Source: Chaetoceros tenuissimus (Eukaryota > Bacillariophyta > Thalassiosirophyceae > Chaetocerotales > Chaetocerotaceae). Taken from it: 59,726 nucleotides of DNA. Within the stretch, counting starts at the first letter, position 1; each line of letters opens with the position of its first letter. The translations under genes and the position numbers were made by a program. Shown one piece after another: positions 5,820 to 53,120 of this stretch. The DNA lies in the NCBI GenBank assembly GCA_021927905.1, contig BLLK01000076.1, positions 1-59,726 on the forward strand. The letters are read 5' to 3'. The notes beneath the pieces are model-generated. The model made no database searches. It saw nothing but the letters and a program-made list of their open reading frames with translations, and had not been told where the DNA came from.

Positions 5820-6030
5820 GGAAAGAGGAAGGGGGGAATGGCTCTTCTTTCCTTTCTTAGAACTCAAAAACTCAATCTCTCCATATCCGATCAGGAGAAG
5901 GGGAGAGGAAGGAAGGAAGGAAGGAAGGATTGGGATTCTAAGCAGTCGTGGAGAGAAAAAGAGCTGAAGAAGAGAGGGAAAAGGAAATGTTCGGGTATGT
6001 AAAAAACTCTCTCAGGTTGAAGTTTTCCGT
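5820..6030 (-). promoter_or_regulatory. Repeated upstream module A (copy 1)
   Basis: Copy of the repeat that also occurs at 9122-9341, 19922-20160, 28495-29105, 22570-22700 (partial) and 32195-32424. Read on the gene strand it holds ACCCGAACATTTCC, a CCTTCCTTCC tract, GAGTTCTAAG and CCATTCCCCCCTTCC. It precedes ST copy 1 in the same orientation as at the other genes. The end nearest the gene is changed here: the ATTAAACCG block is replaced by other sequence at about 5790-5815. Regulatory role is inference. Confidence 0.55.
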
Positions 6031-6035
6031 CACAG

Positions 6036-7177
6036 GTGCATGGGTTTGTTCCATCGCGCAACCTAAACAATCATGAGATTCCATTGAACTACCAAAAAGA
6101 AACTTTACCAGCATCTTCAAACTTCAATTTTAATCAAAAGGTGAAAGCACAGGTAAATGGGGAATATATTCCAAACACTATTGAAGCATGTAAACTACTT
6201 CAATACGAACCTACTATGCATCTCGAGCATTCAAAGCTTGTGATGAAATTTGATCAAGCTGAAATTAAGAAAGCATACCGTCAGAAAGCCAAAGCCTATC
6301 ATCTAGATTCTAGAATTAAAATGTTGAAGGATGAAGAAAGATTCTTTCAGAAGAGCAGAAGCACATGATCAATATTGAGTTCCAACGATTAAATGCAGCA
6401 TATAGAGTTTTGAAATTCAAGGCTAACCAGTCCCCAGAGGAGAGTGCAAAAGAAGTTGTAGTTTCAAGTAAATTTGGAAGTTATAGATCTCAAGCTTACT
6501 CTGATTATCACACTGATAATGATCAACGAGTTGGTATTTGTCTAGGCAATACATCAATCAGTCCAAACAGTTTTGAACGCAAAGTATCTGCACATGAACC
6601 TCCAAGAAAGAAGGGGCCTGTTAGGGCTAGAGATGATTATTCCACAAGTAATGAAGATAGAGTGAGCCTTTATAGAACAGGAACTCAGAAACCTGTCACG
6701 CCTAAACCGAAAGCGCAACATGTCAAGAGAACAGAAAAGCACGTATCACGACAAGGCCCTCAAAAGATGGATGTCAGTGAAAAGAGAAAAGTAAATGCTT
6801 ATTCTGAGTATAACTCAAGCATTGAACAGAACGTTGGAAAATTTAGTGTGAATGATGAAATTGTGGAGAAGATGTTACGAGACCAAGAGGCAAAGGCTAG
6901 AAAGATGAAAGCAAGTATTAGCGTCGAGGAGGTTACTGAGAAATTGCAGCCAGAACCACTTGTAGAAACTCCAAGCCCTAAGTCTCCTGAGCCTTTGCAA
7001 GAGGAAAAGCCTGGCTTCTCTTATGATTTCAAAGATTATACTTCAGAGCAGACTTCATATGCAAGTGATGATGAAATTCTTCAACGACCAAATAGAAGAG
7101 TCAGTGCTTTTTCTGACTACACCACTTCAAATGATCAACGTGTTGGTCTATATGGAAGAGTTGGATCTAGTAGCTAG
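6036..7177 (+). pseudogene. J-domain-like repeat protein, frameshifted (copy 1)
   Basis: The N-terminal ORF (6036-6368) ends in a J-domain-like helix pair: IKKAYRQKAKAYHLDSR. The HPD motif that stimulates Hsp70 is HLD here, so co-chaperone activity is doubtful. Two single-base shifts near 6345-6385 break the frame; the helix resumes at FQRLNAAYRVLKF in the ORF 6365-7177. The rest is a low-complexity tail with four degenerate repeats of about 16 residues: AYSDYHTDNDQRVGIC, ARDDYSTSNEDRVSLY, AYSEYNSSIEQNVGKF, AFSDYTTSNDQRVGLY. There is no membrane segment. It is divergent from ST copy 1 and convergent with the transporter gene. The same breaks occur in the copy at 31047-32188, so they predate the duplication. 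It is the one gene here with no evident glycan role. Confidence 0.6.
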
Positions 7178-7456
7178 TATTTTTCGAAGCTACAGTTTCG
7201 GGGACCATAGGGAAAGTTTTCAAATTGGGTTTGATTGATTGTAAGAAAATAGAATTGAGAAGACTGCAATCAAACGTTTTATAGATTTACATGTTAGAAA
7301 GAATAAAGCATGAGTATCATTATAAATTAATAATATACTTTTGCTTCTACTTAAAACGAATAACTCTATTCAATAGAGGAGTGCTTTTGCTTCACTAGAG
7401 ACTTTGGATTTGATTAGGAAATAGCTAGATATTTAGATTATATATTATTCAACATA

Positions 7457-9026
7457 CTAAATTTCACGTAACTTCGATTTTCTTCCATCTTCAAGATCGA
7501 AAGAATAGGAGTCAGTGAAGCAATCGTCTACCAAGTCTTGGAGATCACGATTGTCAGAGTTTGAGAGTTTGGTGTAACGAAAAGGACCATATCGTTGTAT
7601 GTAGAATAACAATGTATCAACGTTGACACTTTTTAGGAAAAGGGCAATGATAAATATCATCATTCCTACCAAATGCATAGGTGTACATCTATTGTTCTTG
7701 AATGCAATGAAACTGATGAATAAGGTAAATGCTTTCCTTGTAGTAGAGGTGATGCTCATGGACAAGGCACCAAATCGTTTTGTGATTGCTCCTGCGCAAG
7801 ATGATCCACATAGACCAGTCAAAGTAAACAGTATAAGAACCACAATTTTGCGACTTATAGTCCAAAATATTACACTGTCTTCCTCGGATCCATCAGCGAG
7901 GTTTTGAATTTGAGGTATCGTTCCATGTCGAAGGAAAAAGTGCTGGAATCCCGGTATAAACTCTCCGCTTATTATGGTCGCAACAAGCATTGCTACAAAC
8001 GATATCGAGTAGATGACAAGTTGAAATTCATCTTGTGTAGTACGATGATTTACCATGATTAATTCAGAATAATTCGCAACAGCACCATCACATATCAACG
8101 ATACAGTCTGGATATATTGGCAAACATTGAATATTTTGTGAGATTATGAAATAATTCCTCCAAAATCAAGAAGGATAATATGAATTGAAACTTACCAACA
8201 TTGCAAGTCCTAGTGGGTGAAAGACAGTTGTTTTGGAATGCATATCTGCATTAATAAAGAGCGATAGACCTGTCACCAATAGTCCAACCATCCAATAGTC
8301 TTGTTTTGAATATGTTCTTTTTCCAATCACAATTCCACCAATCATGGTAAACATCACTCTAGAACTCTTGATGAGGGTTTTCATGGGATAATTTAAGTAT
8401 CGCATGGCAGCGTTCGTCATACCAACATCAGTAGCTCTAATCAATGATAAAGTCAGGTACAATTTGATTAAAGTCCAACGATGATTGCTGTTCTCTACAG
8501 ATGGTTTTTCTACTATAATGGAATCTGTGTTGTTGTTTGTAGGTTCAAAGACTATCGACTCATCATCAGTTATGGACTCTGTCGTCGAACTTCCACTTGT
8601 CGACACTGGACCTTCATCTCTATTCCCAATGGAGACAGGAGACATGGAAGCAGTACTCACAAGCACTAATGATGGAGAAGAATCAGAAGGTGAAGCCTCT
8701 TCTTGTGCTCTTTTTTGTTTCATATAGCATCTTAATCTGTCCAACATTGTCAAAATAAAACTCCAGAATGCATATCCTAGAAATTGACAAGTACTGAAAA
8801 ACATTGTATACTTTCTTCCAGTAATATGAACGGCAATTAATTCTTGAAGGTATCCATAGACAAGAGTAAATGAGAAAACCCCACATGCACAAACGTAAAA
8901 ATGGAAATTGGGCGAAAGATGAGAAAGGTCCATTCCAAACAAAACCAAATCTGTCAATTCTTGCTTGGAATCTAGCCTTTGACTTCTTCTTCTACGCTTT
9001 GTACTATCTTCTTCCTTGTTGAACAT
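7457..9026 (-). CDS. PAPS transporter, SLC35B2/B3-like (copy 1), two exons
   Basis: Nucleotide-sugar-transporter superfamily member resembling the 3'-phosphoadenosine 5'-phosphosulfate (PAPS) transporters, which import the sulfate donor into the Golgi. Exon 1 is 9026-8196, intron 8195-8108 (GTAAGT...CCAG on the gene strand), exon 2 8107-7457, giving 493 residues. Family-like blocks: VFSFTLVYGYLQELI near the N-terminus, MTNAAMRYLNYPMKTLIKSS after a Ser/Thr-rich insert of about 80 residues, and FGALSMSITSTTRKAFTLF in exon 2; about ten hydrophobic segments. The open frame extends a little upstream of the chosen Met at 9026 until a stop in the module A end (CATTAAACCG), so an original longer N-terminus may have been lost. 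It is divergent from the glycosyltransferase-sulfotransferase gene, with about 0.9 kb between them. Substrate is inferred from family resemblance. Confidence 0.85.
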
Positions 9027-9121
9027 ATCCCTCGCTGAATTATTTTTTCCAGATGGTGTTCTACTTCTACGGTGTAATTTACTTGGTGTGATTCGAAGAA
9101 CATCGTCTTCGTCTTGACTTT

Positions 9122-9341
9122 CGGTTTAATGTGAGGGGAGAGGAAGGGGGGAATGGCTCTTCTTTCCTTTCTTAAGAACTCAATCTCTCCATATCCGATC
9201 AGGAGAAGGGGAGAGGAAGGAAGGAAGGAAGGATTGGGATTCTAAGCAGTCGTGGAGAGAAAAAGAGCTGAAGAAGTCTCTCTGAGAGGGAAAAGGAAAT
9301 GTTCGGGTCTGTAAAAAACTCTCTCAGGTTGAAGTTTTCCG
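9122..9341 (-). promoter_or_regulatory. Repeated upstream module A (copy 2), before PAPS transporter
   Basis: Complete copy, about 220 bp. On the transporter strand: CGGAAAACTTCAACC, GACCCGAACATTTCC, CTCTCCACGACTGC, the CCTTCCTTCC tract, AAGAGCCATTCCCCCC, and the end CACATTAAACCGA. Its gene-proximal end lies about 95 bp upstream of the Met at 9026. It is the same orientation relative to the gene as at the other module A genes. Confidence 0.6.
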
Positions 9342-9599
9342 GTCTTTAATTTTTTTCCCCTGTCTTTAATTTTTTTCCGCTGTCTTTAATTTCCCCCCTG
9401 CCTTTAATTCCCCCCCTAATTTTCCCCCTCTGTCTTTGAAGAGGTTGAAGTCTTCCGGTCTTTAATTTTTCCCCCTGTTATTAGACTAAAATGGTCTCAC
9501 GAAGAATAGGTTGAAGTGTTACAACTGATCAGTCGTAGGAAATTTCTAGACCCTTCTATTTTTGGTTTTTCGAACTTCCAATTTTACCATCCTACCATC

Positions 9600-9745
9600 C
9601 TTTTGAAGTGTTCGGGTCATTAGACTAAAAAGATCTAATAAGACTTATCTCAACTGATCAGTCGTAGGAAATTTCTAAACCCTTCCATTTTTGGAACTTC
9701 CACAGTTCACCATCCTTTTCAACAAAATATTCGGCGATCCCCGAG
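9600..9745 (+). promoter_or_regulatory. Repeated upstream module B, before the GT-sulfotransferase fusion
   Basis: Begins GTGTTCGGGTCATTAGAC and ends about 130 bp later with ATTCGGCGATCC, roughly 200 bp before the ATG at 9951. The same head and tail, in the same orientation relative to a gene, occur at 25757-25985, 22185-22560, 47870-48060 and 52905-53120. Between modules A and B (9342-9600) lie more short repeats of the type TCTTTAATTTTT and GAAGTGTT, and no ORF. Confidence 0.6.
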
Positions 9746-9950
9746 GGAACTGAGGGTGTTCGGTGGTAATTTTGATTCCGAAGACATTTTCTGGGAGAAT
9801 ATCTTTTCAACAGAGACTAGACAACTAGGCAGGAGATTGATTAACTCCTCATTCCTGTCTGTGAAATTTCTGGTGCCACGAAAAGAAAGGGCTGTAATCT
9901 AAAAACAGTTGCCAGGGGTCCTCGAATAAAGCCTATATCTTACTTTCATC

Positions 9951-13176: not shown

Positions 13177-13801
13177 CTAAATGACGAGTTTGTTTTGTTT
13201 CGGGTCAGTGCAATTAAAAACGCCTTCTTCACCCAGTCGAGTTTTGCGATTGCTCTTAAATGCATTGATTGTTCCTTCTAGAGTAAAACACACTCCAAGT
13301 TTGAATTCCTCCAATACCATACTTGCCAGAAGGGGGCTCATCAGTGGTGTGAGCAATCCAATGCTCATAGTAGTACCTTGTAATATTTGCATTTTAGCCA
13401 TAACGCCTCCTCCCCCTGGTTTAGCTACAAGCGGGCGCTCAATTGGTGCTTCCAATCTAGTGACATAAGATGATCGCACCCAAATGTAGTTAAAATACAC
13501 ATACCCCCACGAGTAATCGTAAAACCTGCCTTTTCTAATTGAGGGACAGTCTTAAAGCGAAACAATACATCTCTCCATGGCTCAATTACATATTTAAACA
13601 ATGGTCCATCAGTTGCTGCTCTCTTTGCTTCTGTCATATTTCCATGGTTGACCATTCCTTTACTATGCATGTAAAGAAAAACAGAGTCTTTCCTCTGTTG
13701 AGGATTCTGGGACATGGCTTTTTCCCACATAGAATGCAGCCCCCAGTACTCATATCGATTTTCATAACGGGGTGTGACAGTGGCACTAGTGCCACCAATT
13801 T
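13177..13801 (-). pseudogene. Truncated, frameshifted glycosyltransferase-like fragment
   Basis: Two overlapping minus-strand frames (13835-13425 and 13500-13177) read as one protein with a one-base shift near 13490-13500. Blocks seen: RYEYWGLHSMWEKA, VFLYMHSKGMVNHG, EPWRDVLFRF, then FNYIWVRSSYVTRLEAPIE. The Y-x-HSKG and W-x-RSSY-x-x-x-LE-P blocks recall a group of algal glycosyltransferase-like proteins; I cannot name the family firmly. The N-terminal part is missing: at 13801 the sequence switches abruptly to the middle of another glycosyltransferase gene in the opposite direction. Confidence 0.55.
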
Positions 13802-15787
13802 GGAAGCAAATATGAGCAATGGATGCGATCATCAAATTTTCTTGGTGACCATAGTATCAAAGAGGTTCGACGTCATGGAACTTGCTTTTTCCAATTTGTG
13901 ACTGATGTCGATCATACGGGAGACCTTCTATCATCAGATGGTTCTCAGCGGCTCATTGTGATTGACCCATCTAGAATGCCATACAAGAACAACCGTCGGA
14001 ATACAAAAATCTTGAAGCTGAATCCTGGTCTACTCTTCCCTTGGGCTGATAGAGTGATTTGGCAGGATGCTAAACTTCTTCAATCGAATCATGGTAATAT
14101 GCCTTCGCCCCGTGGTTTACCAAGCGATTACTTACTACACTTCAATCGTACCGTTGGTCGCTATGGTGTTTGCTCAAGCTACATGGGATTGCCTCCTGAT
14201 AAAGCTTCTGTTGGAGACTCCTCGACAGTCAGTTTTAAAGCTCATTGCGAGGCTATTATTGCTGCTGCTGAGAAGAGACCTACTGTATCTGATGATCTCG
14301 AAACTCTACGACTCCAGTGTCAACACTACGAGGAAATGCATAGTAATGAAGCACTACAGTCGAGTCAGGTATTTTACAATCAGCATCCACTTGTTGATAC
14401 TGCCTTCATCGTTTATGATATGCGTAATTCAACCTGCCGAAAATTTAATGGAGATTTTGGGTGTTCATGGCTCAGTGAAATATTTTGTTTCTCCGACCGA
14501 GATCAGATTTCATTTCCACATGTACTAGCAAGCTCAGGGTTGAGGCTTTCTCCTCATATGCAAGTTACTGGTCAAGAATATCGCGACCGCATATATATTA
14601 ATGAAAATCAAAGACCTATGTTACACATTGCAAAGAGAAGCTGCCATTGGTACTATAGGAGCTTTTCTCGATGTATAGCAAGTTCCAACACGCATATTGA
14701 TGAGGAAATGATCAAGGACAACGAGACTACACCAACGACCACCACAACGTCAACATAACTGAGAGTTGCTGTGATTGTAGCGGGTACTTTGAATAGGTTC
14801 ATTTTTGATTCTGCTCTGAAAAATTTGATAAAACCTATGAAAAAAAGAGCATCCGTTGACTATTATGTGTCACTAAGCACCGCTCGAATGAAAGCTTACA
14901 GGTCAGACTCAGGATACACAGACCGCCTTCAGCCAGATCCCACACTACCTTCTTCTTCTGTTGAAGATTTTGTTGATATAGAGGAATATATACGAACCAA
15001 AATTGCCAGTCTGTCCTCGTCTGTAGGTGCCGTGAATTTGCAGAAATCTGTTGATATCGATTCTGAGCCAATGCTTATCGCTAGAAGAGAAAGAGCCCTA
15101 GAAGAGAACCCAGACGAAGATCCAGACTCAAGATTTCCTATCATTGACAATAGAAACGCTGCTATATCGCAAAGGACTGCAAATGCAAATAGGAATCTTT
15201 TGAGGTTGCACCTAGCTATACAGAGTTTGTGGAAGACTGCCACCAATTGGGAAAACGAAGAAGGTTTTAAATACGATTATGTCATGTTCCTTCGTGACGA
15301 CTCTCTCTGGTTGAAAGAGTTTGACATACGCAATCTTGTAGCTAAAGGTGGAGACATTTTCATCCCTGCATGTGATGCAAGGGATCCTCCTTTACAACCA
15401 AGTGAAATAAATGACCATATCCTAATTTCGCGACGTGACACTGCAGACGTATTTGGAAATTACTATTCAGAACTATTGAAAAGAGATGTCAAGGCTTGCA
15501 TGAAACGACTTCCAGATGATCTGACAAAAGGTGGAAGGCGTGGATGCAATAGTGAAATGTTACTGAAATGGATAGTGGACGAAAGAAACATAACTGTCAC
15601 CAAACTTGGACAAAGTAAGCTACCCTTTCAGCGCTCTGCAAATGTAAAGTTACCGGATGGATCGAATGTTCCATGTTTCCATAAGTTTTGCCAAAGTCGA
15701 AAGCACCCCTTGACTTTCACAAATGAGTCGAATGGAATGAAAATGTGCAAACATATCGATTGGAAGCAGGTTTTGGACATAAAATAA
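13802..15787 (+). pseudogene. 5'-truncated, stop-interrupted copy of the DUF616 bimodular glycosyltransferase
   Basis: Near-identical to residues 206-866 of the intact gene at 50173-52773. It starts abruptly inside the codon string for GSKYEQWMRSSNFLG, with no start codon or anchor. A TAA at 14756-14758 replaces the Lys codon found in the intact copy just before RVAVIVAGTLNRF, splitting it into ORFs 13823-14758 and 14771-15787. Both the DUF616-like part and the second transferase-like part (FLRDDSLW) are otherwise preserved, with few substitutions, so the duplication is young. Confidence 0.88.
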
Positions 15788-19921: not shown

Positions 19922-20160
19922 TGGTTTAATGTGAGGGGAGAGGAAGGGGGGAATGGCTCTTCTTTTCTTTCTTAGAACTCAAGAACTCAATCTCTCCATA
20001 TCCTCTCCAGGGGAGAGGAAGGAAGGAAGGAAGGATTGGGATTCTAAGCAGTCGTGGAGAGAAAAAGAGCTGAAGAAGTCTCTCTGAGAGGGAAAAGGAA
20101 ATGTTCGGGTCTGTAAAAAACTCTCTCATGGGTAAAAGAAAGGCTTGGAACAGGTTGAAG
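19922..20160 (-). promoter_or_regulatory. Repeated upstream module A (copy 3), before the SGNH gene
   Basis: Same order of blocks as the other module A copies when read on the gene strand, ending CACATTAAACC about 105 bp before the ATG at 19815. The GATCAGGAGAAGG word is shortened here. A further GTGTTCGAGTCTTTAAAA word lies at its far end (20157-20175). Confidence 0.6.
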
Positions 20161-22138: not shown

Positions 22139-22184
22139 CTTGAAGGAGAGAATTGAGGTTGTATCATAGAAGAAGGTGACTCAA

Positions 22185-22710
22185 AATGCCCAGATCTAGA
22201 ATAAGATCGCTGAAGAAAAAAATAGTTGTAAAGTTTTCCTACTGAAAGCAGAAACGGATAACTAAGAACGAAAAGCCATCACAGAAAAATTCATCTTCCC
22301 AAAGTACATTCCCACCTCTTGGGCCAGAAAGTGTTCGGGTCTTTAGTTTTAAAAGGGAAAGGATGAAGTGTCCGGGTCTTTATAAAAAAAATTTCTCTTG
22401 GAAGAGGCTAAAGTGTTCGGGTCTTTAATTTTTTCTCTTGGAAGAGTTGAAGTGTTCGCGTCTTTAATTTTTTCTCTTGGAAACCTTTCACTTAGAACCA
22501 AGTCTTCTTATTAGATCTTTCTATACTAATGACCTGAACACACTTTTTCCCAAAAGATGGGTTTTAGTGACCCGAACACTTCAACTCTTTCTGTTCTTCC
22601 TCCCCCCCCCTTCTCCTGATTGTGATTGAATCTGGACAGATTGAGTTCTTGAGTTCTAAGAAAGGAAAAAAGAACCATTCCCCCCTTCCTCTCACAGAGT
22701 ATGCTGAGCT
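22185..22710. promoter_or_regulatory. Bidirectional spacer with modules B and A and an array of GTGTTCGGGTC words
   Basis: Between divergent genes. Near the GT32-like gene: CCCAGATCTAGAATAAGATCGC, the module B tail, read toward 22138 (quoted as CCCAGATCTAGAA and AAGATCGC). Four GTGTTCGGGTC-like words lie at about 22330, 22370, 22411 and 22450, the last three followed by TTTA and CTCTTGGAAG at roughly 40-50 bp spacing. At 22570-22700: GACCCGAACACTTCAAC, then the gene-proximal half of module A read toward 22754. Confidence 0.55.
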
Positions 22711-22753
22711 AGCTATTGCTTTTGTTTTTATTACATATAATTTGAATGAAGAC

Positions 22754-25756: not shown

Positions 25757-25985
25757 CCTTTTCGGGTCATCATGAAAAGTTCTTGATAGTTCCCCCAGTC
25801 CATCCATTCAGCGATCCTGTTCTAGTCTAAAGGGCATGTTCGGGTCATCATGAAAAAATCTCCCTCTTCTAAGAAAGGCGGGTGAAACGGGGACAATTCT
25901 CCATTTTTCAAAAAGGTGACAATTCCCCCAGTCCATCCAAATTCGGCGATCCTGTTCTAGAGTAAAGGGGACTGTTTGCGTTCTG
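25757..25985 (+). promoter_or_regulatory. Repeated upstream module B (two partial copies)
   Basis: Begins TTCGGGTCATCATGAAAAG; a second start, GTTCGGGTCATCATGAAAA, is at about 25832. It includes AGGCGGGTGAAACGGGGACA and AATTCGGCGATCCTGTTCTAG. It matches the modules at 47870-48060 and 52905-53120 in the same orientation relative to its gene, and ends about 230 bp before the ATG at 26213. Confidence 0.55.
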
Positions 25986-27554: not shown

Positions 27555-27900
27555 TGAATCAAAATGTCCAGATCTAGAGTAGGATCGCCGAATATTTTGT
27601 TGAAAAGGATGGTGAACTGTGGAAGTTCCAAAAATGGAAGGGTTTAGAAATTTCCTACGACTGATCAGTTGAGATAAGTCTTATTAGATCTTTTTAGTCT
27701 AATGACCCGAACACTTCAAAAGGATGGTAGGATGGTAAAATTGGAAGTTCGAAAAACCAAAAATAGAAGGGTCTAGAAATTTCCTACGACTGATCAGTTG
27801 TTAAAACACTTCAACCTATTCTTCGTGAGACCATTTTAGTCTAATAACAGGGGAAAAAATTAAAGACCGGAAGACTTCAACCTCTTCAAAGACAGAGGGG
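27555..27900 (-). promoter_or_regulatory. Module B, right-arm copy, now without its gene
   Basis: Mirror of 9480-9745. On the minus strand it reads GTGTTCGGGTCATTAGAC through ATTCGGCGATCC and on into TAGATCTGGACATTTTG, which is the fuller consensus tail seen at 47920 and 52980. In the left arm it serves the fusion gene at 9951; here no minus-strand gene follows, since the duplication ended at 27582. Confidence 0.55.
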
Positions 27901-28235: not shown

Positions 28236-28292
28236 GTGCGCCGCAGGCACTTAGAGATTATATTTTGCAGTAGCACTCTATTCTACACTAAT

Positions 28293-30767: not shown

Positions 30768-31046
30768 TATGTTGAATAATATATAATCTAAATATCTAGC
30801 TATTTCCTAATCAAATCCAAAGTCTCTAGTGAAGCAAAAGCACTCCTCTATTGAATAGAGTTATTCGTTTTAAGTAGAAGCAAAAGTATATTATTAATTT
30901 ATAATGATACTCATGCTTTATTCTTTCTAACATGTAAATCTATAAAACGTTTGATTGCAGTCTTCTCAATTCTATTTTCTTACAATCAATCAAACCCAAT
31001 TTGAAAACTTTCCCTATGGTCCCCGAAACTGTAGCTTCGAAAAATA

Positions 31047-32188: not shown

Positions 32189-32194
32189 CTGTGA

Positions 32195-32424
32195 CGGAAA
32201 ACTTCAACCTGAGAGAGTTTTTTACATACCCGAACATTTCCTTTTCCCTCTCATCAGAGAGACTTCTTCAGCTCTTTTTCTCTCCACGACTGCTTAGAAT
32301 CCCAATCCTTCCTTCCTTCCTTCCTCTCCCCTTCTCCTGATCGGATATGGAGAGATTGAGTTCTTGAGTTCTAAGAAAGGAAAGAAGAGCCATTCCCCCC
32401 TTCCTCTCCCCTCACATTAAACCG
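32195..32424 (+). promoter_or_regulatory. Repeated upstream module A (copy 5), before ST copy 2
   Basis: Complete copy: GGAAAACTTCAACCTGAG, ATACCCGAACATTTCC, the CCTTCCTTCC tract, AAGAGCCATTCCCCCC, then CACATTAAACCGA, about 115 bp upstream of the ATG at 32540. Confidence 0.6.
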
Positions 32425-32539
32425 AATTTCGAAAGAGAAATAAAACTCCTCTCCTCCGATCTGAAAAAGAGACTGACGGATTTCTATTCCCCCAACACTA
32501 GAAATTTTCAATCTGCTCAGGTATCTATTTGGTAGAAAA

Positions 32540-36943: not shown

Positions 36944-37129
36944 TATGGAGAAGTAGAGAAAGGAGATGGTGGTTGTGCGATGAAAACGTAAAATATGATC
37001 AGTAAAAATAGAAATGTCAATTGAGATACTGTACCGGTGTGCTTGAGATGTCGAGTGAAGTAATGAGGAGTAGAGTGTTCCGAAAAGAAATCGAGTATTT
37101 TGCACAGTCCTAAAGTTTCAGAAAACTCA

Positions 37130-37740
37130 TCCTCACCGGTTGGCGATTGGAGATTGGAAATAAAAGTTGTTGCCTCAAAGTAATCCTAGCGAACGTAAAA
37201 TACGATAAGCTAAAGAAAACTCGTCCTCAGCAGTTGGAGAGTTGGAGAGTTGGAGAGTTGGAGATAAAAGTTGTTGCTTCAAAGTAATCCTAGCGAACGT
37301 AAAATACGATAAGCTAAAGAAAACTCGTCCTCAGCAGTTGGAGAGTTGGAGAGTTGGAGATAAAAGTTGTTGCCTCAAAGTAATCCTAGCGAACGTAAAA
37401 TACGATAAGCTAAAGAAAACTCGTCCTCAGCAGTTGGAGAGTTGGAGAGTTGGAGATAAAAGTTGTTGCCTCAAAGTAATCCTAGCGAACGTAAAATACG
37501 ATAAGCTAAAGAAAACTCGTCCTCAGCAGTTGGAGAGTTGGAGAGTTGGAGATAAAAGTTGTTGCCTCAAAGTAATCCTAGCGAACGTAAAATACGATAA
37601 GCTAAAGAAAACTCGTCCTCAGCAGTTGGAGAGTTGGAGAGTTGGAGATAAAAGTTGTTGCCTCAAAGTAATCCTAGCGAACGTAAAATACGATAAGCTA
37701 AAAAAACTCGTCCTCAGCAGTTGGCGATTGGAGATAAAAG
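37130..37740. repeat. Minisatellite, 96-bp period, about six units
   Basis: Unit: TTGCCTCAAAGTAATCCTAG, CGAACGTAAAATACGATAAG, CTAAAGAAAACTCGTCCTCA, then GCAGTTGGAGAGTTGGAGA. Unit starts are spaced 96 bp (37332, 37428, 37524, 37620); the first unit has an 8-bp extra GAGTTGGA. An apparent 205-codon ORF (37242-37859) exists only because the period is a multiple of three. Confidence 0.9.
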
Positions 37741-39917
37741 TTGACTCAAATAGAAAGAGTAGATGGGTGATGTCCAGTAGCGTATGTCTTGATAGTGTAG
37801 CAATTAAATACAGCAAAAGAGCTCTAGAGGAAACTCGGAGGTCCGAAGAAGGATCTTGATTCATGCAAAGAAGGATCTTGATTCATGCACAGTACGAAAG
37901 TCAATACTAGGTACTGTCGATTGCATGGGCTGATACGAACTTGTCGATACGTCTGTCTAAGATTCCTGAGAAAGAAGGGAGTAACAAGATATAATAAGAT
38001 GTGTGTTGTAAAAATAGATGCAATACTATACCTTGTAGACCTGCTGCCAAGATGAATGAAACGAAAGAGAAGCAAGTGTGGTCCAAACAAGACCCAGACT
38101 ATGGAGCAAAGTGTAAAAAGAAGAAACTTGGAGATGGAGACTAAAGAGATTGCTCCAAAATGAGAGAATAGCTGAAGTGTCGAGAAGGATAGGGAGATGA
38201 ATGAAGTAGAAGTCGAGCGTTCCGAAGGTAGAGTGAGCTTGTGATGGCAGACATACTCGTGAACTGTAGACCGTAGCAATTGTTCCAAACGTAAAATGAG
38301 CTGGTCGCAATATTATTTACCGAGGTCTGAGGCAAGTGTATATCGAAATATAGTCTGACTTTGATGCAAACTATGAAGGTAGAGACTTGTATTAGGGCTG
38401 TAGCAAATCGAGCAAAGAAGGAGAGAAAATACCAGAGCGAAGTACGGTTACACTAAGGGAAGGATAAGGCTACCCTCGATGCGAAGAAATCTCATTCATA
38501 AGAACAGTTGCTCGAAAGAATGCTGAAGATCTGTCTGAAAAAGAGGATTCATAGAAAAGAATGTGAGATGCATGAATGCAGCTGGAATACTGTACCCATG
38601 AACCTTTTGCGGAAATAACGACGAGTAGAACAAGTACATCCTGTATGGAGAGTATGAATGATGCTAAACTTGGTACTTTCATGCAAACAACGAAATAAAG
38701 GTGAAGGCGAAGATAGAGACAGGAATTACGTTCGAGGCGTAAACCATGCATTGATACAAAGTAAAAAGTTGGTATCCGAGGACAAGCTCAGAAGTAATAC
38801 AAACTTGTTGTCATCTATTGGAAAAGAGGGTTATAGCGCAAAGTAAATTGTAAGTTGAATATAATTGAAATACTATACCGAGTAACAGCGAAGAAAATCA
38901 TGCGTGTGAAGCGTGACGTCTGACGCGGGATATGAAGGCAGAGATTTGAATCTACGGATTGTATCAAAAGAGAAATTATGAATGATGGATAGTACAAAAC
39001 GGTACACCTGAACTCTGTCGATTGCTCAAGACTGCTATGAACTTGTCTACTCCGCCTTTCGACCTGCTGCGAAGATGAGGGAAATGGAACGGACCCAAAC
39101 CATGACGAAAAGTGTAAGAGAAGTGACTTGGGGGTGAAGACCGTAGAGACTGTTCCAAAATGAGAGGTAGCTTGTAGCCGGTGATGGAGATGATGAAGAT
39201 AAAGCAACTGCTGTCCAAATGTAAAGCATTTATGAGCAAAGTATTTGTAGCAAGGAGACTAAAACTACCAGCTGTTACTCTGACTATGATGAAACAAGCA
39301 AGAGCAGAAGTCGAAATTTGCGAATATGAAGGAGACAGCAAATGCGTTCCAGGTGCAAGCCATGCTTGAAACAAAGTACGGAATTCGGTATCCAAGGGCA
39401 ACTCCAAAGCAGTACAAACCTGTTTCATTTATGGGAAAAGAGGATTATAGAGCAGAGTAAAGTGGAAGTCGAATAAAATTGCAATACTGTACCAAATAGC
39501 CATCACGTAAAACCCGATTGTGCAAAAGATGCAAATGTAGAAACTGCAGTTGGCTAGTTGCAAGGACAGACGCATTGAAAGCTATTGTAAAGCAGATAGT
39601 TTCAAAAGACATGAAGACGGAGACTTGAATGCGTAGACGAAATTTGTAGTCTTCTAAAAAGAGAATTGTAGGTATTGAAAGGTCGTTAAAATGAAGGCAA
39701 AGGTAGAGACAAGAAGTGCATCCCGGGAGTGAATCTTGAGTGGCATAAAGCACTAAAGCCCGTATCCAGTACCACTTCCCTTTTATCTATTTGAACGGGA
39801 CAAGAGAGTAAAAAAACTAATGAAAAATGTTAGTTGAATAAAAAAATATGCTTCAAAGCAACCCTAGCCATTGTTCAGTAATGGATATATCTAATGGAAA
39901 CTCATCATCAGCGAGTA
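37741..39917. repeat. Degenerate long-period repeats, no gene
   Basis: Diverged blocks recur here and at 41200-42190. The clearest is about 38780-38930 against 41823-41965 (ACAAGCTCAGAAGTAATAC, ATACTATACCGAGTAACAGC, CATGCGTGTGAAGCGTGACG). Phrases such as ATGAAGGTAGAGACTTG and CCAAAATGAGAG recur with drift. Minus-strand ORFs of up to 154 codons have Ser/Phe-rich compositions of chance type. Confidence 0.55.
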
Positions 39918-41045
39918 GAGTTGTAGAGTAAAGTCTGGACTTTGGACTTTGGACTTTGGACTTTGGACTTTGGGCTTTGCCTCAAAGTAGACCTAGCAAG
40001 CGTTCACAACGACTTAAAGCTAAAGAAAACTCATCATCAGCGATTTGGACTTTGGACTGTGGACTTTGGACTTTGGACTTTGCCTCAAAGTAGACCTAGC
40101 AAGCGTTCACAACGACTTAAAGCTAAGGGAAACTCATCATCAGCGATTTGGACTTTGGACTGTGGACTTTGGACTTTGCCTCAAAGTAGACCTAGCAAGC
40201 GTTCACAACGACTTAAAGCTAAGGAAAACTCATCATCAGCGATTTGGACTTTGGACTGTGGACTTTGGACTTTGCCTCAAAGCAGACCTAGCAAGCGTTC
40301 ACAACGACTTAAAGCTAAAGAAAACTCATCATCAGCAATTTGGACTTTGGACTGTGGACTTTGGACTTTGCCTCAAAGTAGACCTAGCAAGCGTTCACAA
40401 CGACTTAAAGCTAAAGAAAACTCATCATCAGCGATTTGGACTTTGGACTGTGGACTTTGGACTTTGCCTCAAAGTAGACCTAGCAAGCGTTCACAACGAC
40501 TTAAAGCTAAAGAAAACTCATCATCAGCGATTTGGACTTTGGACTGTGGACTTTGGACTTTGCCTCAAAGTAGACCTAGCAAGCGTTCACAACGACTTAA
40601 AGCTAAAGAAAACTCATCATCAGCGATTTGGACTTTGGACTGTGGACTTTGGACTTTGCCTCAAAGTAGACCTAGCAAGCGTTCACAACGACTTAAAGCT
40701 AAAGAAAACTCATCATCAGCGATTTGGACTTTGGACTGTGGACTTTGGACTTTGCCTCAAAGTAGACCTAGCAAGCGTTCACAACGACTTAAAGCTAAAG
40801 AAAACTCATCATCAGCGATTTGGACTTTGGACTGTGGACTTTGGACTTTGCCTCAAAGTAGACCTAGCAAGCGTTCACAACGACTTAAAGCTAAAGAAAA
40901 CTCATCATCAGCGATTTGGACTTTGGACTGTGGACTTTGGACTTTGCCTCAAAGTAGACCTAGCAAGCGTTCACAACGACTTAAAGCTAAGGAAAACTCA
41001 TCATCAGCGAGTGGAGTTGTAGAGTGAAGCTTTGCCTCAAAGTAG
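39918..41045. repeat. Minisatellite, 96-bp period, about eleven units
   Basis: Unit: GCCTCAAAGTAGACCTAGCA, AGCGTTCACAACGACTTAAA, GCTAAAGAAAACTCATCATC, then AGCGATTTGGACTTTGGACT and GTGGACTTTGGACTTT. Unit starts at 40083, 40179, 40275 and so on to 40947 are exactly 96 bp apart. The first two units have extra GGACTTT heptamers. Related to the 37130 array by the CCTCAAAGTA..CCTAGC core. Confidence 0.95.
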
Positions 41046-42190
41046 ACCTAGCAGGATACTCAAATAACAAGCGAAGGAAAACTCATCATAGGCGAAACGG
41101 AAAGAAGATTGCAGCTATGCCTCAAAGTAGACTAAGCATGCTCAAATAATAAGCAAAGGAAAACTCATCATCGACGAAACTGGAAGAAAAGAAAAAATAG
41201 AGGTCTGAAGCAAAGTGTATCGAAATGTAAGCTGACTTGATGCAAACTATGAAGGTAGAGACTTATCCAAAGACAATAATAGTTGCTCCAAGGCAGGTAC
41301 AAATGTGTGTCATCTATCAGAAGAGAGTTTTAGAGAACGGGTAGGCTGTGAGTCAAAAGCAAATGTAAACTATACCGAATAGCCAAAAAATGATTGTGAA
41401 TCGAAATGCATTTTAAACGTGATATCAATGAAATATATGACGACAGAAGCTCGAATATGTTTCGCATGATTGCGAGGAAGATTGCATGGGAAGCAAAACC
41501 TGAACATGGCCAAAACTGCAAAAGTAGGGTCCTCAGTACCCTGTGATGGATTGAAAGTAATTGTAAAGCAAATGTAAACAGCTAGTGACGAAGGGTATGA
41601 AGGTGGAAACTTGAATGCGTAGTCGAAATTTGTAGTTCTCGTGAATGAAAGTATATTGCCGAGGTAGAGACAAGGAAGAAGAAAGCGAATGCGTTCCAAT
41701 TATGCGGAACTGGAAGGGTGTAGCGAAGTATTTGCAGCGAGTAGAGTAGTAGTGCCAATAGGGGGCAGTAGCAGTTGCTCGACAATGATCTAATCCTTGC
41801 GATATATAGAAGTTATAAACACGGACAAGCTCAGAAGTAATACAAACTTGTTGTCATCTATTGGAAAAGAGGGTTATAGAGCAAAGTAAATTGTAAGTTG
41901 AATATAATTGAAATACTATACCGAGTAACAGCGAAGAAAATCATGCGTGTGAAGCGTGACGTATGACGCGAGATATGAAGGCAATAACTTAAATGCGTAG
42001 TCGAGATCTTTATTCTTCCAAAAAGACTGTAGCTATTGAGAGATCGCAGAAGTGAAGGCAAAAGTAGACACAAGAAGTGCATCCTAGGACTGAATCTTGA
42101 ATGGCGTAAAGTACTAAACTGCATCCATTACTGTGAAGTGTCAGACCCCCTATTTCTTTTTTATTTGATCGGAAAAAGATAGTAACAATG
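41046..42190. repeat. Core-repeat remnants and degenerate repeats, no gene
   Basis: Two irregular core units (about 41034-41170, with GCCTCAAAGTAGAC and AAACTCATCAT) lead into diverged sequence that shares blocks with 37741-39917. Confidence 0.5.
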
Positions 42191-43115
42191 AAAATCAAAT
42201 GTTAGTAAAATAAATAAGTTGCTTCAAAGTAATCCTAGCCAACGTTCAGTAACGAATATAGCTAAAGAAAACTCATCATCAGCGATTGTAGATTGTAGAT
42301 GCCTCAAAGTAGACCTAACAAGCATTTATAGCAAGCCAAGAAGACTCATCATTAGCGGGTAGATTGACGATTGACGATTGACGATTGACGATTGACAATT
42401 GACAATTGTAGATTGTAGATTGACGATTGTAGATTGACGATTGTAGATTGACGATTGTAGATTGACGATTGTAGATTGACGATTGTAGATTGACGATTGT
42501 AGATTGTAGATGCCTCAAAGTAGACCTAGCAAGCGTTCATAGCAAGCTAAGAAGACTCATCATTAGCGAGTAGATTGTAGATTGTAGATTATAGATTGTA
42601 GATGCCTCAAAGTAGGCCTAGCAAGCGTTCATAGCAAGCTAAGAAGACTCATCATCAGCGGGTTAGAGTGTAAATAAAAGTTTGCCTCAAAGTAAACCTA
42701 GCAAGCGTTCACAACGACTTAAAGCTAAAGAAAACTCATCATCAGCGAGTAGAGTTGTAGAGTTGTAGAGTTGTAGTTTTGCCTCAAAGTAGACCTAGCA
42801 AGCGTTCACAACGACTTAAAGCTAAAGAAAACTCATCATCAGCGAGTAGAGTTGTAGAGTTGTAGAGTTGTAGTTTTGCCTCAAAGTAGACCCAGCAAGC
42901 GTTTATAGCAAGCGAAGAAGACTCATCCTCAGTGGGTTAGATGGTAGATAAAAGTTTTGCCTCAAAGTAGACCTAGCATGTTCATATAAGAAACGAAGGA
43001 AAACTCATCATGGACGAAATTGAAAGAAGATTACAGCAATGCTTCAAAGTAGACCTAGCAAGTGTTCATAACAGACGAAGGAAAACTCATCATTGACGAA
43101 ACTGGAAGGAAAGAA
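42191..43115. repeat. Irregular minisatellite with the same core and several spacer types
   Basis: Cores at about 42301, 42512, 42603, 42684, 42780, 42876, 42959 and 43032. Spacers between cores differ: expanded GATTGACGATTGTA words (42364-42508), TAGATTGTAGATTATAGA, or AGAGTTGTAGAGTTGTAG. No ORF of interest. Confidence 0.85.
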
Positions 43116-44316
43116 AATATATTCCTGTAATTATAAAGGAAAGGAGTGAGTATAATACTATAAAATAATAGAACTATCAGAAGGAGATGAAGAGGCGATT
43201 ATGAGCATGAATCTTGACACTCCTCAACACAAAATTGAGTAAAACTAGTGAGTACATCAATCGCTGTTCTGCAAAGTAAAATAAAACCATTCAGACTGTT
43301 AGCTCGGAGCACATATATCTCGCGACTCATATAATATATCGGTGGTTGGGTTTGATGAACATTCGGTGCCATGTAACACACAAAAAGAGGGATGATAGTA
43401 TCTTATAATTAGAAGCTATTTGTTCGTTGTTTGGAGATGTTGTTGGATATATTCTTCGGAGTCTTGAGAACAATGAGACGCATCACCATAGACATCAATC
43501 GTGGAGCTATATTAGTAAATGAGTGTTACATACAATCTCTTCCTGGTTCCATCTATTCACACTCCTTTCCAATTGATCTACCCTTTGCACAAATTGGGGG
43601 GTATATTTTCATCTGGGGGAATTACACAATTTTAAGCTAAATCACTGTTAATTCGACTTTGCAGATTTTCTTCAACTAATTTAATGTTAAGCAAAGGCCC
43701 GGAAATCCACGCGACAGCAACGCTAACAAAAACCCAATTCACCTCCAATTTGAATGAAATGCATTGAATAGACCTAATTCCTATCAGTACAATTAGGATC
43801 AGACATCGGAAGAATAGACTAAAACTACTACTCGAATAGATTGCGAAGGCTGAACCTAATTGTACCATGGAAAAGAGATGCTAAAGTAGAGGAAGTCAAG
43901 ACTGAAAAGGTGGGAAACACACAACACTTTCAAATCGATAGAAATCAATTCACAACACTTTACAAAGAACAGCATTCGATGCAATATACATAGAGACTAA
44001 TAATTGTTTATTGATGTAAAAGATTTGTTTCAATATCATTTCTTTGTTATGTACAGAGCCTTTGTATTCACTCTATTGTGGTGTTCGTTTGCGATGTTGT
44101 TGAGTTTGGTGTGGAGATGCGGAAAGAGAGCAGCAGCAGAGAGCACCAGTATCTAATGTACGTACCCTACTGTGCAAATATGAAATGTCGCAGAAATCCC
44201 TTTTTACTTAAGCCCCTCCCCTCTTCCAAAAAGATGAAAATTCACCCCCCAATTTGTGCACGGGGTAGAATCCAAACAAGATCAAAGATGTTGCAACCGA
44301 AACAAAACTGCTTGGT
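43116..44316. other. Gene-free stretch with one duplicated block
   Basis: Holds the second copy of the block from 35411-35560 (43372-43530). I see no gene, though several short ORFs exist. ACCCCCCAATTTGTGCAC (44246) mirrors CACAAATTGGGGGGT (43588), so 43588-44260 may be bounded by short inverted words. Confidence 0.4.
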
Positions 44317-44437: not shown

Positions 44438-44440
44438 TAT

Positions 44441-47869: not shown

Positions 47870-48060
47870 AGACGTTTTCTTTCTCAAAAGGGAGGCATCA
47901 ATAAGACCTTGAATCAAAATGTCAAGATCTAGATCAGGATCGCCGAATTTCGGATGGCCTGGAGGAATTGTCACTTTTTTGGAAATTGGAGAAATGTCTC
48001 GGTTTCACCCGACTGCCTTAGAAGAGGGAGAACTTTTCATGATGACCCGAACAGGCCCTT
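47870..48060 (-). promoter_or_regulatory. Repeated upstream module B, before the second SGNH gene
   Basis: On the gene strand it runs from GTTCGGGTCATCATGAAAAG through TCGGGTGAAACCGAGACA to ATTCGGCGATCCTGATCTAG and TCTTGACATTTTGATTCAAG, then GAGAAAGAAAACGTCTCC. It is the same over about 190 bp as 52905-53120 with very few changes, and both end about 130 bp before their ATG. Confidence 0.65.
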
Positions 48061-48109
48061 TAGAGGAGATAGAGAGAGGAAAAGAATTTTATGATCTTTT
48101 TAAAATGAC

Positions 48110-50172: not shown

Positions 50173-52773
50173 TTACTTTATTTCAAAGACCTTTTTCCAA
50201 TCGATTTGTTTGCATATTTTTATTGCATTCGACTCATTTGTGAAAGTCAAGGGGTGCTTTCGACTTTGACAAAACTTATGGAAACATGGAACATTCGATC
50301 CATCCGGTAGCTTTACATTTGCAGAGCGCTGAAAGGGTAGCTTACTTTGTCCAAGTTTGGTGACAGTTATGTTTCTTTCGTCCACTATCCATTTCAGTAA
50401 CATTTCACTGTTGCACCCACGCTTTCCACCTTTTGTCAGATCATCTGGCAGTAGTTTCATGCAACCCTTGACATCTTTCTTCGATAGTTCTGAATAATAA
50501 TTTCCAAATACGTCTGCAGTGTCACGTCGCGAAACTAGGATATGGTCATTTATTTCACTTGGTTGTAGAGGAGGATCCCTTGCATCACATGCAGGGATGA
50601 AAATGTCTCCACCTTTAGCTATAAGATTGCGTATGTCAAACTCTTTCAACCAGAGAGAGTCGTCACGAAGGAACATGACATAATCGTATTTAAAACCTTC
50701 TTCCTTTTCCCAATTGGTGGCAGTCTTCCACAAACTCTGTATAGCGAGATGCAACCTCAAAAGATTCCTATTTGCATTTGCAGTCCTTTGCGATATAGCA
50801 GCGTTTCTACTGTCAATGATAGGAAATCTTGAGTCTGGATCTTCGTCTGGGTGTTCTTGTAGGGCTCTTTCTCTTCTAGCGATAAGCATTGGCTCAGAAT
50901 CTATATCAATAGATTCCTGCAAATTCACGGCACCTACAGACGAGGTCAGACTGGCAATTTTGGTTCGTATATATTCCTCTATGTCAACAAAATCTTCAAC
51001 AGAAGAAGAAGGTAGTGTGGGATCTGGCTGAAGGCGGTCTGTGTATCCTGAGTCTGACCTGTAAGCTTTCATTCGAGCGGTGCTTAGTGACACATAATAG
51101 TCAACGGATGCTCTTTTTTTCATAGGTTTTATCAAATTTTTCAGAGCAGAATCAAAAATGAACCTATTCAAAGTACCCGCTACAATCACAGCAACTCTCG
51201 GCTTTGTTGACGTTGTGGTGGTCGTTGGTGTAGTCTCATTGTCCTTGATCATTTCCTCATCAATATGTGTGTTGGAACTTGCTACACATCGAGAAAAGCT
51301 CCTATAGTACCAATGGCAGCTTCTCTTTGCAATGTGTAACATAGGTCTTTGCTTTTCATTAATATATATGCGGTCGCGATATTCTTGACCAGAAACTTGC
51401 ATATGAGGAGAAAGCCTCAACCCTGAGCTTGCTAGTACATGTGGAAATGAAATCTGATCTCGGTCGGAGAAACAGTGTATTTCACTGAGCCATGAACACC
51501 CAAAATCTCCATTAAATTTGCGGCAGGTTGAATTACGCATATCATAAACGATGAAGGCAGTATCAACAAGTGGATGCTGATTGTAAAATAACTGACTCGA
51601 CTGTAGTGCTTCATTACTATGCATTTCCTCGTAGTGTTGACACTGGAGTCGTAGAGTTTCGAGATCATCAGATACAGTAGGTCTCTTTTCAGCAGAAGCA
51701 ATAATAGCCTCGCAATGAGCTTTAAAACTGACTGTCGAGGAGTCTCCAACAGAAGCTTTATCAGGAGGCAATCCCATGTAGCTCGAGCAAACACCATAGC
51801 GACCAACGGTACGATTGAAGTGTAGTAAGTAATCGCTTGGTAAACCTTTGGGCGAAGGCATATTGCCATGATTCGATTGAAGAAGTTTAGCATCCTGCCA
51901 AATCACTCTATCAGCCCAAGGGAAGATTAGACCAGGATTCAGCTTCAAGATTTTTGTATTCCGACGGTTGTTCTTGTATGGCATTCTAGATGGGTCAATC
52001 ACAACGAGCCGCTGAGAACCATCTGATGATAGAAGGTCTCCCGTATGATCAACATCAGTCACAAATTGGAAAAAGCAAGTTCCATGACGTCGAACCACTT
52101 TGATACTATGGTCACCAAGAAAATTTGATGATCGCATCCATTGCTCATATTTGCTTCCAAGAGCAGCTCCGTAGACTACTAATTCTTTGCACTTGCTTGC
52201 AAACTTCTTTGCAATATCTTCTTGTAATTCTCTCAAATATTCTGCATTGTCTCCACAAAGCCCACAAGAGCGCTTATAGGAAGCAGAACTGAAAATAGAG
52301 CGATGTGGATCCTTCATACATGTACCATCCAATATCCAGGGAACATTCTTCTCTGGTGAATGGCATTGTATTTTCGGTGCCACTCCTACTGCTTGTCTCA
52401 AGAGTGTTGATGTAGATACATTTCGAGACACCATGCTTTTCATATCATGCTCCTTACTCTCTGTATGATTGCTACTGGAAGAAGAAGAATCATACAAACG
52501 TTGCTTTTGAAGTAAGTCGAAATGAGCTTCTCTACTGGAAAATACATGCTGTCGCTGATTCTTCATCGACATGCTGTCCTTGTCTGGGGCTTTGATAATG
52601 TTGGCACTGACAATCTTTAGGTCTAAGGCGATAGAAATGTTGAGAATAATTGTTAGGAACAAAAGGAGTAACATTCCCAATAGGATCAATTCAATTTTCT
52701 TCATCTTTCGCTTCTTCATCTTTCGTATCTTCATATTTGATTGGGAATGAATATAGGCATTGTTGTGCGTCAT
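50173..52773 (-). CDS. Bimodular glycosyltransferase: DUF616 (TOD1/MUCI70-type) plus second transferase-like domain
   Basis: 866 residues, single exon, ATG at 52773. Lys/Arg-rich cytoplasmic tail, anchor at about 27-50, and a Ser-rich stem to about 130. Residues about 195-490 resemble DUF616: MPYKNNRRNTKILKLNPGL, FPWADRVIWQDAKL near 285-297, VDTAFIVYDMRNSTC and FSDRDQISFPHVL. A Thr-rich linker (ETTPTTTTTST) precedes a second domain from about 532, with RVAVIVAGTLNRF and, near 700, YDYVMFLRDDSLWL with an acidic pair of D-x-D type. Two transferase modules in one chain suggest a polymerising or two-step enzyme. A near-identical but broken copy is at 13802-15787. Module B lies 132 bp upstream. 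The DIRS-like element follows on its upstream side. Confidence 0.82.
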   Translation of the reverse strand: MTHNNAYIHSQSNMKIRKMKKRKMKKIELILLGMLLLLFLTIILNISIALDLKIVSANIIKAPDKDSMSMKNQRQHVFSSREAHFDLLQKQRLYDSSSSSSNHTESKEHDMKSMVSRNVSTSTLLRQAVGVAPKIQCHSPEKNVPWILDGTCMKDPHRSIFSSASYKRSCGLCGDNAEYLRELQEDIAKKFASKCKELVVYGAALGSKYEQWMRSSNFLGDHSIKVVRRHGTCFFQFVTDVDHTGDLLSSDGSQRLVVIDPSRMPYKNNRRNTKILKLNPGLIFPWADRVIWQDAKLLQSNHGNMPSPKGLPSDYLLHFNRTVGRYGVCSSYMGLPPDKASVGDSSTVSFKAHCEAIIASAEKRPTVSDDLETLRLQCQHYEEMHSNEALQSSQLFYNQHPLVDTAFIVYDMRNSTCRKFNGDFGCSWLSEIHCFSDRDQISFPHVLASSGLRLSPHMQVSGQEYRDRIYINEKQRPMLHIAKRSCHWYYRSFSRCVASSNTHIDEEMIKDNETTPTTTTTSTKPRVAVIVAGTLNRFIFDSALKNLIKPMKKRASVDYYVSLSTARMKAYRSDSGYTDRLQPDPTLPSSSVEDFVDIEEYIRTKIASLTSSVGAVNLQESIDIDSEPMLIARRERALQEHPDEDPDSRFPIIDSRNAAISQRTANANRNLLRLHLAIQSLWKTATNWEKEEGFKYDYVMFLRDDSLWLKEFDIRNLIAKGGDIFIPACDARDPPLQPSEINDHILVSRRDTADVFGNYYSELSKKDVKGCMKLLPDDLTKGGKRGCNSEMLLKWIVDERNITVTKLGQSKLPFQRSANVKLPDGSNVPCFHKFCQSRKHPLTFTNESNAIKICKQIDWKKVFEIK

Positions 52774-52904
52774 AGAGAAGAAGAAGAAGTATAAAATCCT
52801 ATTCGAGGGAGAAGCTATGAATTGGCGATTACTCGTACATATTTTTCCTATTGGAAAATGTCAATATCTTGGAACATACGAGCGAATATTTACGTGATTT
52901 GGGA

Positions 52905-53120
52905 TGGAGCAGAAGACAGTAGCTTGGGTAGGAGACGTTTTCTTTCTCAAAAGGGGGGCATCAATAAGACCTTGAATCAAAATGTCAAGATCTAGATCAG
53001 GATCGCCGAATTTCGGATGGCCTGGAGGAATTGTCACTTTTTTGGAAATTGGAGAAATGTCTCGGTTTCACCCGACTGCCTTAGAAGAGGGAGAACTTTT
53101 CATGATGACCCGAACAGGCC
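52905..53120 (-). promoter_or_regulatory. Repeated upstream module B, before the DUF616 gene
   Basis: Near-identical to 47870-48060, from AGCAGAAGACAGTAGCTTGG to GATGACCCGAACAGGCCC. Identity ends after ACAGGCCC in both places, which here marks the likely left limit of the DIRS-like element. Confidence 0.65.

Follow-up and report, generated by a model that had tools for sequence, protein, structure and literature searches.

Divergent upstream blocks and a common motif in glycan gene clusters of the diatom Chaetoceros tenuissimus suggest one control system

The 59,726-bp contig BLLK01000076.1 of the small marine diatom Chaetoceros tenuissimus, analysed here as a whole (the window, or C60, in a genome of 41.03 Mb in 68 contigs which are numbered likewise), carries repeated non-coding blocks, modules A and B, upstream of genes that seem to make and modify sulfated sugars of the cell surface. 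A first-pass annotation of this DNA had described two modules. Both are present, but A and one subtype of B (B1) are the two arms of one divergent unit rather than separate modules. Both arms carry, at their inner ends, one or several copies of an 18-bp motif, GAAGTGTTCGGGTCWTTA; the earlier annotation missed this divergent arrangement and the motif core common to both arms, which also lies upstream of genes without full modules. The common blocks and motif before clustered sulfated-sugar-type genes suggest one control system, which was copied and re-used during gene shuffling.

The window contains 12 module copies (six A, six B), not counting weak pieces at 9476, 27729 and 26010. Eleven of them face a gene start, in agreement with the fixed orientation proposed previously, but a B copy at 27582-27718, at the broken end of an inverted duplication, faces none. 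Module A is about 205 bp long. Module B consists of two subtypes, B1 and B2, whose consensus strings are 69% identical; the B2 copies were missed by the B1 profile and recovered by BLAST. The main pieces of the A and B1 copies have nhmmer E-values of 3e-24 to 3e-68, and the B2 copies have E-values of 1e-42 to 8e-70: these matches are not due to chance.

Strong A and B1 neighbours stand head to head in one intergenic region, reading outward as the arms of a bidirectional promoter do, at seven of seven places (nhmmer): 9.1-9.7 and 27.6-29.1 kb on C60, 1.2268-1.2273 Mb on C34, 14.1-14.6 kb on C24, and 45.5-46.1, 64.9-65.4 and 98.4-99.0 kb on C21. This geometry is partly inherited. The seven places are not independent events, because C24 repeats part of C21 as near-identical DNA and several units have common ancestry. 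A and B2 are also head to head at C12:10297-10746. The gene pairs across units include a PAPS-transporter-like gene (PAPST) with a glycosyltransferase (GT)-sulfotransferase fusion gene, SGNH463 with the fusion gene, a GT2-like gene with a DUF616 remnant, and ST22 with GT32. The partner of the B arm of the fusion gene is A with PAPST in C60 and A with SGNH463 in C34, which demonstrates exchange.

Genome-wide searches with queries of 131 bp (A), 146 bp (B1) and 145 bp (B2) gave 13, 20 and 19 matches, respectively; these counts are lower bounds, because the search scores the best candidates only, and some of the 52 pieces belong to one copy. All 52 lie inside clusters which sum to about 0.34 Mb of the 41 Mb: C60, C12, C24, the first 148 kb of C21, and C34 at 1.195-1.242 and 1.350 Mb. 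These regions are rich in glycosyltransferase, sulfotransferase, PC-esterase, O-fucosyltransferase and sugar-transporter genes. Of 19 exact occurrences of ATTCGGCGATCC in 41 Mb, 18 are in clusters and one is at C27:1698597; its reversed control does not occur. The nine exact copies of CCATTCCCCCCTTCC are all in clusters (no A match accompanies that at C21:59861); allowing one or two mismatches adds 68, 67 of them outside clusters, and the reversed control gives 28 in total. The word GTTCGGGTCAT has 46 copies, 39 in clusters (reversed control 51), and exact TGTTCGGGTC has 72, of which 51 are in clusters; the 21 others are scattered singly, no two within 10 kb (reversed control 67). For the short words, then, it is the placement that is enriched rather than the total. 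In that sense, the cluster genes have in common an upstream cis-element that is rare elsewhere, and functionally related, non-homologous genes stand side by side; both are features of co-regulated eukaryotic gene clusters.

The motif GAAGTGTTCGGGTCWTTA recurs in 10 of 13 units. It is also found 240 and 258 bp upstream of a UXS-like gene (a loose name for a GDP_Man_Dehyd/epimerase gene, since the exact sugar enzyme is not specified by Pfam) and 287 bp upstream of an O-fucosyltransferase gene (O-FucT), where only 23-31 bp around the motif are in common with the other regions compared. In 13 intergenic stretches picked for carrying a module, the 10-bp seed TGTTCGGGTC, counted at up to one mismatch, has 43 copies (1-8 per stretch). 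One copy per stretch is expected because each arm begins with the motif; 10 of the 13 stretches have more than one copy and eight have more than two, compared to 0-0.15 in shuffles. The copies have a single orientation in 12 stretches, and the ST22|GT32 stretch has both. The 100 motif matches in all the DNA examined give 77 distinct 45-mers, 35 of them under 75% alike. The consensus of these 35 contexts is GAAG-TGTTCGGGTC-WTTA, and conservation fades beyond the flanks; only the GAAG and TTA flanks are unbiased, since the seed itself was chosen. Some of the 100 matches are probably due to chance (those in Copia and in the SGNH463 coding sequence, and one at C14). Heat-shock-factor (HSF)-like proteins are one candidate for binding the motif, because GAAGTGTTC seems to resemble a GAA-N3-TTC site; the main text of PMC8613185 names HSF-type domains among those more abundant in C. 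tenuissimus.

Comparison of the two B subtypes (11 B1 rows and seven of ten B2 rows, leaving out the degenerate or deviating B2 rows of C34:1231, C21:54 and ST26, and the GT32 row) shows that the ends of the consensus are kept (12/12 and 33/36 columns) and that the middle has drifted (50/90). This unevenness is matched by 88 of 20000 column shuffles.

The junctions between modules and genes were compared from -700 to +400 around the ATG for six A genes and 13 B-side or motif genes. The A homology between unlike genes stops about 94-108 bp before the ATG for PAPST and SGNH463, 58-61 bp for ST22, and 349-407 bp for the 300-aa sulfotransferase-like gene. The B homology stops at least 23 bp before the ATG, except for U310, where the common DNA extends to the listed start (-5) and up to 52 bp past it; this start is probably misplaced. 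Distances of 126 and 132 bp between module end and ATG had been quoted before: the former holds for SGNH463 only when the module is made to end at CCATTCCCCCCTTCC, and no place gives the latter. A junction at CACATTAAACC is common to PAPST, SGNH463 and the 300-aa gene, and another at ATTCGGCGATCC parts the fusion gene from the other B genes. In the stretches examined, no arm faces the Copia, DDE or EF-hand genes, and the unnamed U310 has one.

The modules follow clusters, not gene families, because family members outside the clusters have no module match. The claim that they mark nearly every glycan gene thus holds inside clusters but fails outside: only two of 23 GT32 matches are in clusters, both starting from stretches with module DNA, and no module match was found near the other 21. 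The GT32 gene of C60 is faced by a degenerate B, and the stretch upstream of that of C21 also holds the B1 which faces U310. The fusion gene has B at all three full copies, and seven partial relatives on C48, C38, C14, C58 and C54 have no module match. For PC-Esterase (seven matches, five loci), an arm faces the genes on C60, C34 and C21; near the genes on C27 and C14 no module was matched. All 16 matches to TOD1_MUCI70/DUF616 are in clusters; 10 have a same-strand B upstream (one only as a 54-bp fragment) and one, at a contig end, cannot be judged.

We favour, at slightly better than even, a bidirectional, GAL1-GAL10-like promoter that would co-regulate a sulfated-glycan cluster and would have spread by duplication and exchange. 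The two modules would be the arms of one bidirectional intergenic promoter, and the motif copies, the presumed binding site of a cluster-specific activator, would lie between two core promoters that point away from each other. Each arm, the pyrimidine-rich A arm as well as the B arm, would supply a core promoter, a start site and a leader, and the two would drive different glycan genes in opposite directions. Segmental duplication would have copied the unit, and ectopic recombination or conversion would have joined unrelated glycan genes to its arms, placing the cluster under one control. What the cluster makes is presumably an extracellular polysaccharide that is sulfated, perhaps of the fucose-containing kind reported for Chaetoceros. 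The two possibilities raised earlier, a common promoter and the capture of genes behind a common sequence, both fit the sequence, and the earlier interpretation is partly supported.

Several points weigh against a shared promoter. Its activity, the activator, the co-expression of the genes, the transcripts and the start sites are all predicted from sequence. The geometry and orientation are largely inherited, because the copies descend from common duplications; many copies sit within segmental duplications and are not independent, and some are redundant or allelic, since C24 and C21 have near-identical DNA in common. The haplotype status of the small contigs is uncertain. Module A at C34:1230860-1230990 (+) and B2 at C34:1231029-1231142 (-) are face to face, and two weak pieces, B1 at C12:10151 and A at C60:26010, likewise point towards the other arm. 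No recognised gene start lies in front of three of the 14 A copies (C21:45950, C21:64913, C34:1230860), the distance from arm to gene is about 1 kb for three of four GT2-like copies, and five of the 16 DUF616 matches have no B. The evidence for motif recurrence is weakened by the choice of the 13 stretches by module, the total of the 10-mer TGTTCGGGTC is no rarer than that of its reversed control (72 vs 67), and the motif is minisatellite-like in places (67-bp steps at C34:1350016-1350150, adjoining a DDE transposase gene). The longest identical run between B1 and B2, 13 columns, is reached in 1251 of 5000 shuffles, so the two B1/B2 tests, unevenness and longest run, disagree in strength. The modules are not more conserved than coding DNA: the B arm of the fusion gene is 86% identical between C60 and C34, and 3.2 kb including the gene 92.5%.

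The most serious alternative, which we consider possible though rather unlikely, is neutral hitchhiking: old intergenic DNA would have spread by tandem and segmental duplication of the clusters, without common regulation. Large duplications are indeed abundant, with identical inverted copies of 3.2 kb in the window (5969-9174 and 29050-32255, 100% by self-comparison) and DUF616 units repeated in C34, C21, C12 and C60; orphan arms exist, and coding DNA is conserved at least as well as the modules. However, BLASTP shows most of the flanking genes to be unlike one another, yet they have the upstream block in common, the short motif is kept in promoters which are otherwise little alike, B1 and B2 are unevenly conserved, and no arm faces the transposon and EF-hand genes mentioned above, U310 being the unnamed gene that has one.

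The bidirectional promoter could also be part of a cassette system, in which glycan-modifying genes are exchanged into the arms of the unit, so that the lineage keeps changing the composition of its sulfated polysaccharide, at the surface or exuded, with a single switch in control and perhaps in response to viruses or bacteria; we hold this extension to be improbable. As for a viral origin, a search with one exact pattern gave no match, among sequences which may not include near relatives of the genome of the window.

About as improbable is the idea that the blocks are mainly a recombination handle, that is, homology for swapping genes within and between clusters, which would produce variant glycan sets. 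The 70-bp repeats upstream of trypanosome VSG genes provide homology for gene exchange in this way. In the diatom, 120 bp of the A module of the first PAPST gene (9207-9326) are identical to the A module of SGNH463 (20009-20128), and the common junctions at CACATTAAACC and ATTCGGCGATCC and the exchange of partners between C60 and C34 also agree with such a role. But swapping is compatible with promoter function, and may be an addition to it rather than an alternative.

A transposable element or its remnant (miniature inverted-repeat transposable element or long terminal repeat) chancing to sit upstream of genes is very improbable, even if the modules are repeated, non-coding and located in a region with transposon genes (Copia, DDE): no module matches lie outside the clusters, apart from one exact ATTCGGCGATCC elsewhere. 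Terminal inverted repeats in 14 units measure 5-7 bp at best and flanking duplications 4-6 bp, and for each of these lengths at least 17 of 200 random positions do as well. The genome-wide check for scattered repeats or transposon ends that the first-pass annotation had called for was negative (52/52 pieces in clusters, no clear terminal inverted repeats or target duplications), and a dispersed repeat or transposon is rejected on these grounds.

Gene clusters with common divergent promoters are familiar from fungi and yeast. As in yeast GAL1-GAL10, two arms read outward from a stretch with repeated binding-site-like motifs, with functionally linked genes on both sides. The diatom arms differ from GAL1-GAL10 in being duplicated and attached to about ten gene families that show no resemblance by BLASTP (the fusion and GT2-like genes being counted once, and the sulfotransferase types being perhaps remotely related). 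Fungal biosynthetic clusters, such as that of aflatoxin with AflR, similarly combine clustered pathway-like genes, divergent pairs and one short motif upstream of many genes; the differences are that this is a diatom with glycan genes, that there are several clusters per genome and long blocks besides the motif, and that the regulator is only presumed. Plasmodium var genes (ups types) and trypanosome VSG genes with their 70-bp repeats, which lie in multigene regions that recombine, also have upstream blocks that are conserved and keep one orientation, but these precede one gene family, whereas the downstream families differ in the diatom.

Chaetoceros species secrete a fucose-containing sulfated polysaccharide, according to the main text of PMC7896085, and a sulfated mannan, according to that of PMC13063451. 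Both are discussed there for carbon export and microbiota, and C. tenuissimus itself is not shown in these texts, in which "biosynthe" does not occur. A link between the cluster and either polysaccharide is our guess. A cluster under a common control motif would point to candidate genes for the biosynthesis, and their regulator could be sought through the motif. Among the open-literature matches listed (subscription papers lie outside this scope), no title or abstract start reports this cluster or motif, and the same is true of the matches for diatom bidirectional promoters and glycan gene clusters. The main text of the genome paper (PMC8613185) contains neither "sulfotransferase" nor "glyco", and that of PMC12305248 contains none of "sulfotransferase", "glycosyl" and "CTEN210".

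The Pfam families in and around the clusters are UAA, PC-Esterase, Gly_transf_sug (GT32), TOD1_MUCI70, GT17, GT61, GDP-fucose O-fucosyltransferase, FkbM methyltransferase, nucleotide-sugar transporter and GDP_Man_Dehyd/epimerase, with Sulfotransfer_3 below the Pfam cut-off; several members have no Pfam name, U453 and U310 among them. The PAPST proteins are UAA, SLC35B-like, with a weak match to SLC35B1 structures; their PAPS specificity is a putative label of the earlier annotation. The fusion gene combines a GT2-like-related domain (residues ~122-375) with a sulfotransferase domain (~391-589). The match of ST22 to PF03567 has an E-value of only 0.19, and PF03567 is found in two of the 10 proteins listed for ST26 (one being the window's own). 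None of the 22 proteins listed for SGNH572 has a Pfam name; the GASHSR and DWSHY blocks of its family can be read as SGNH-like. The Pfam search gave nothing for the 300-aa gene, whose FFHNRKVGGSSLR may be a sulfotransferase PAPS loop. Sequence searches in the PDB gave no match for the fusion gene, U453 and ST22, and one weak, irrelevant match for the 300-aa gene. On C34 (1206511-1210191), a GT61-like gene is present as head-to-tail, near-identical copies with a spacing of about 1.2 kb, which is either a tandem gene or an assembly effect.

In the window, the module motifs quoted by the first-pass annotation are present near the places given, and nhmmer confirms its assignment of A to both sulfotransferase-like copies, both PAPST genes, SGNH463 and, truncated, the gene at 22754. 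The sulfotransferase-like gene consists, judged by translation, of a 300-aa open reading frame (ORF) at 32815 and its truncated copy, and A faces both: at 32222-32431 (+, E 5e-64) and 5799-6002 (-, E 8e-58). The remnant at 5155-5394 is 98% identical to residues 2-81 of the 300-aa gene and is cut at the edge of a Copia-bearing repeat. This Copia-type ORF stretch (1-5155) is 99.9% identical to C12:12238-17393 and stops where the 5' copy of the 300-aa gene is cut off. The divergent partner of the latter, present as identical ORFs at 6365-7177 and 31047-31859, has four loose SAYSDYxTxNDQRVG repeats and matches no Pfam family at E-values up to 1.

The unit between PAPST1 (ATG 9026) and the fusion gene (ATG 9951) is a complete divergent one (9027-9950), with A at 9114-9314 (-, E 3e-68), B1 at 9604-9740 (+, E 4e-46), TGTTCGGGTC at 9300 and 9609, and a second partial B1 before the fusion gene at 9476-9593 (E 2e-23), all by nhmmer. 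Module A of PAPST2 (ATG 29198) is split (28522-29109, +; two nhmmer pieces and alignment) by a 373-bp insert at 28660-29032, and the orphan B1 at 27582-27718 (-) was delimited by window self-comparison and nhmmer. Between the B and A arms of this PAPST2 unit lies a repeat (28109-28425, 97% identical to C34:1236666-1236980), perhaps a tRNA-derived short interspersed nuclear element; it holds a tRNA-like stretch (28300-28358), the only Rfam match at the gathering threshold, which eliminates an RNA gene in the modules.

SGNH463 (ATG 19815) has A at 19922-20116 (-, nhmmer E 8e-60), and its protein has a 98% copy in C. tenuissimus, CTEN210_10375. The divergent unit between GT32 and ST22 (22139-22753) comprises a truncated A before ST22 (22579-22699, +, nhmmer E 3e-24) and six copies of TGTTCGGGTC (at most one mismatch) in both orientations. 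The assignment of B to the fusion gene, SGNH572, DUF616, ST26 and GT32 also stands, but B is very degenerate before GT32: one 47-bp piece with an E-value of 3e-4 and one 34-38-bp piece at 82-88%. Module B2 precedes ST26 at 25826-25961 (+, 88% to B2); this gene starts at about 26213, and its frame is broken or spliced before 26467. BLAST places B2 of SGNH572 (ATG 47744) at 47925-48069 (-), with motif copies at 48044 (exact), 48208 and 48283 (one mismatch each), and B2 of the DUF616/TOD1_MUCI70 gene (Pfam PF04765, ATG 52773) at 52988-53124 (-). No module was found at a truncated DUF616 copy (13799-15784), and the "J-like" gene, said to have no module of its own, could not be identified. At the B module of DUF616, the first of two long ORFs (719 and 1175 aa, 53595-59561, no Pfam match at E 0.001) is divergent from that gene.

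The main text of PMC8613185 describes the NIES-3715 assembly as 41 Mb in 85 scaffolds, the largest of 4.46 Mb, made haploid with HaploMerger2, with a heterozygosity of 1.56%. A 2-kb stretch is 99-100% identical on C21:152001-154000, C24:53802-55803 and C39:450607-452605, and because of this recurrence some cluster parts may be alleles or may have been assembled in duplicate. The window also has tandem arrays at 37040-43121, largely of 96-bp units with GGACTTTGGACTGTGGACTTT runs.

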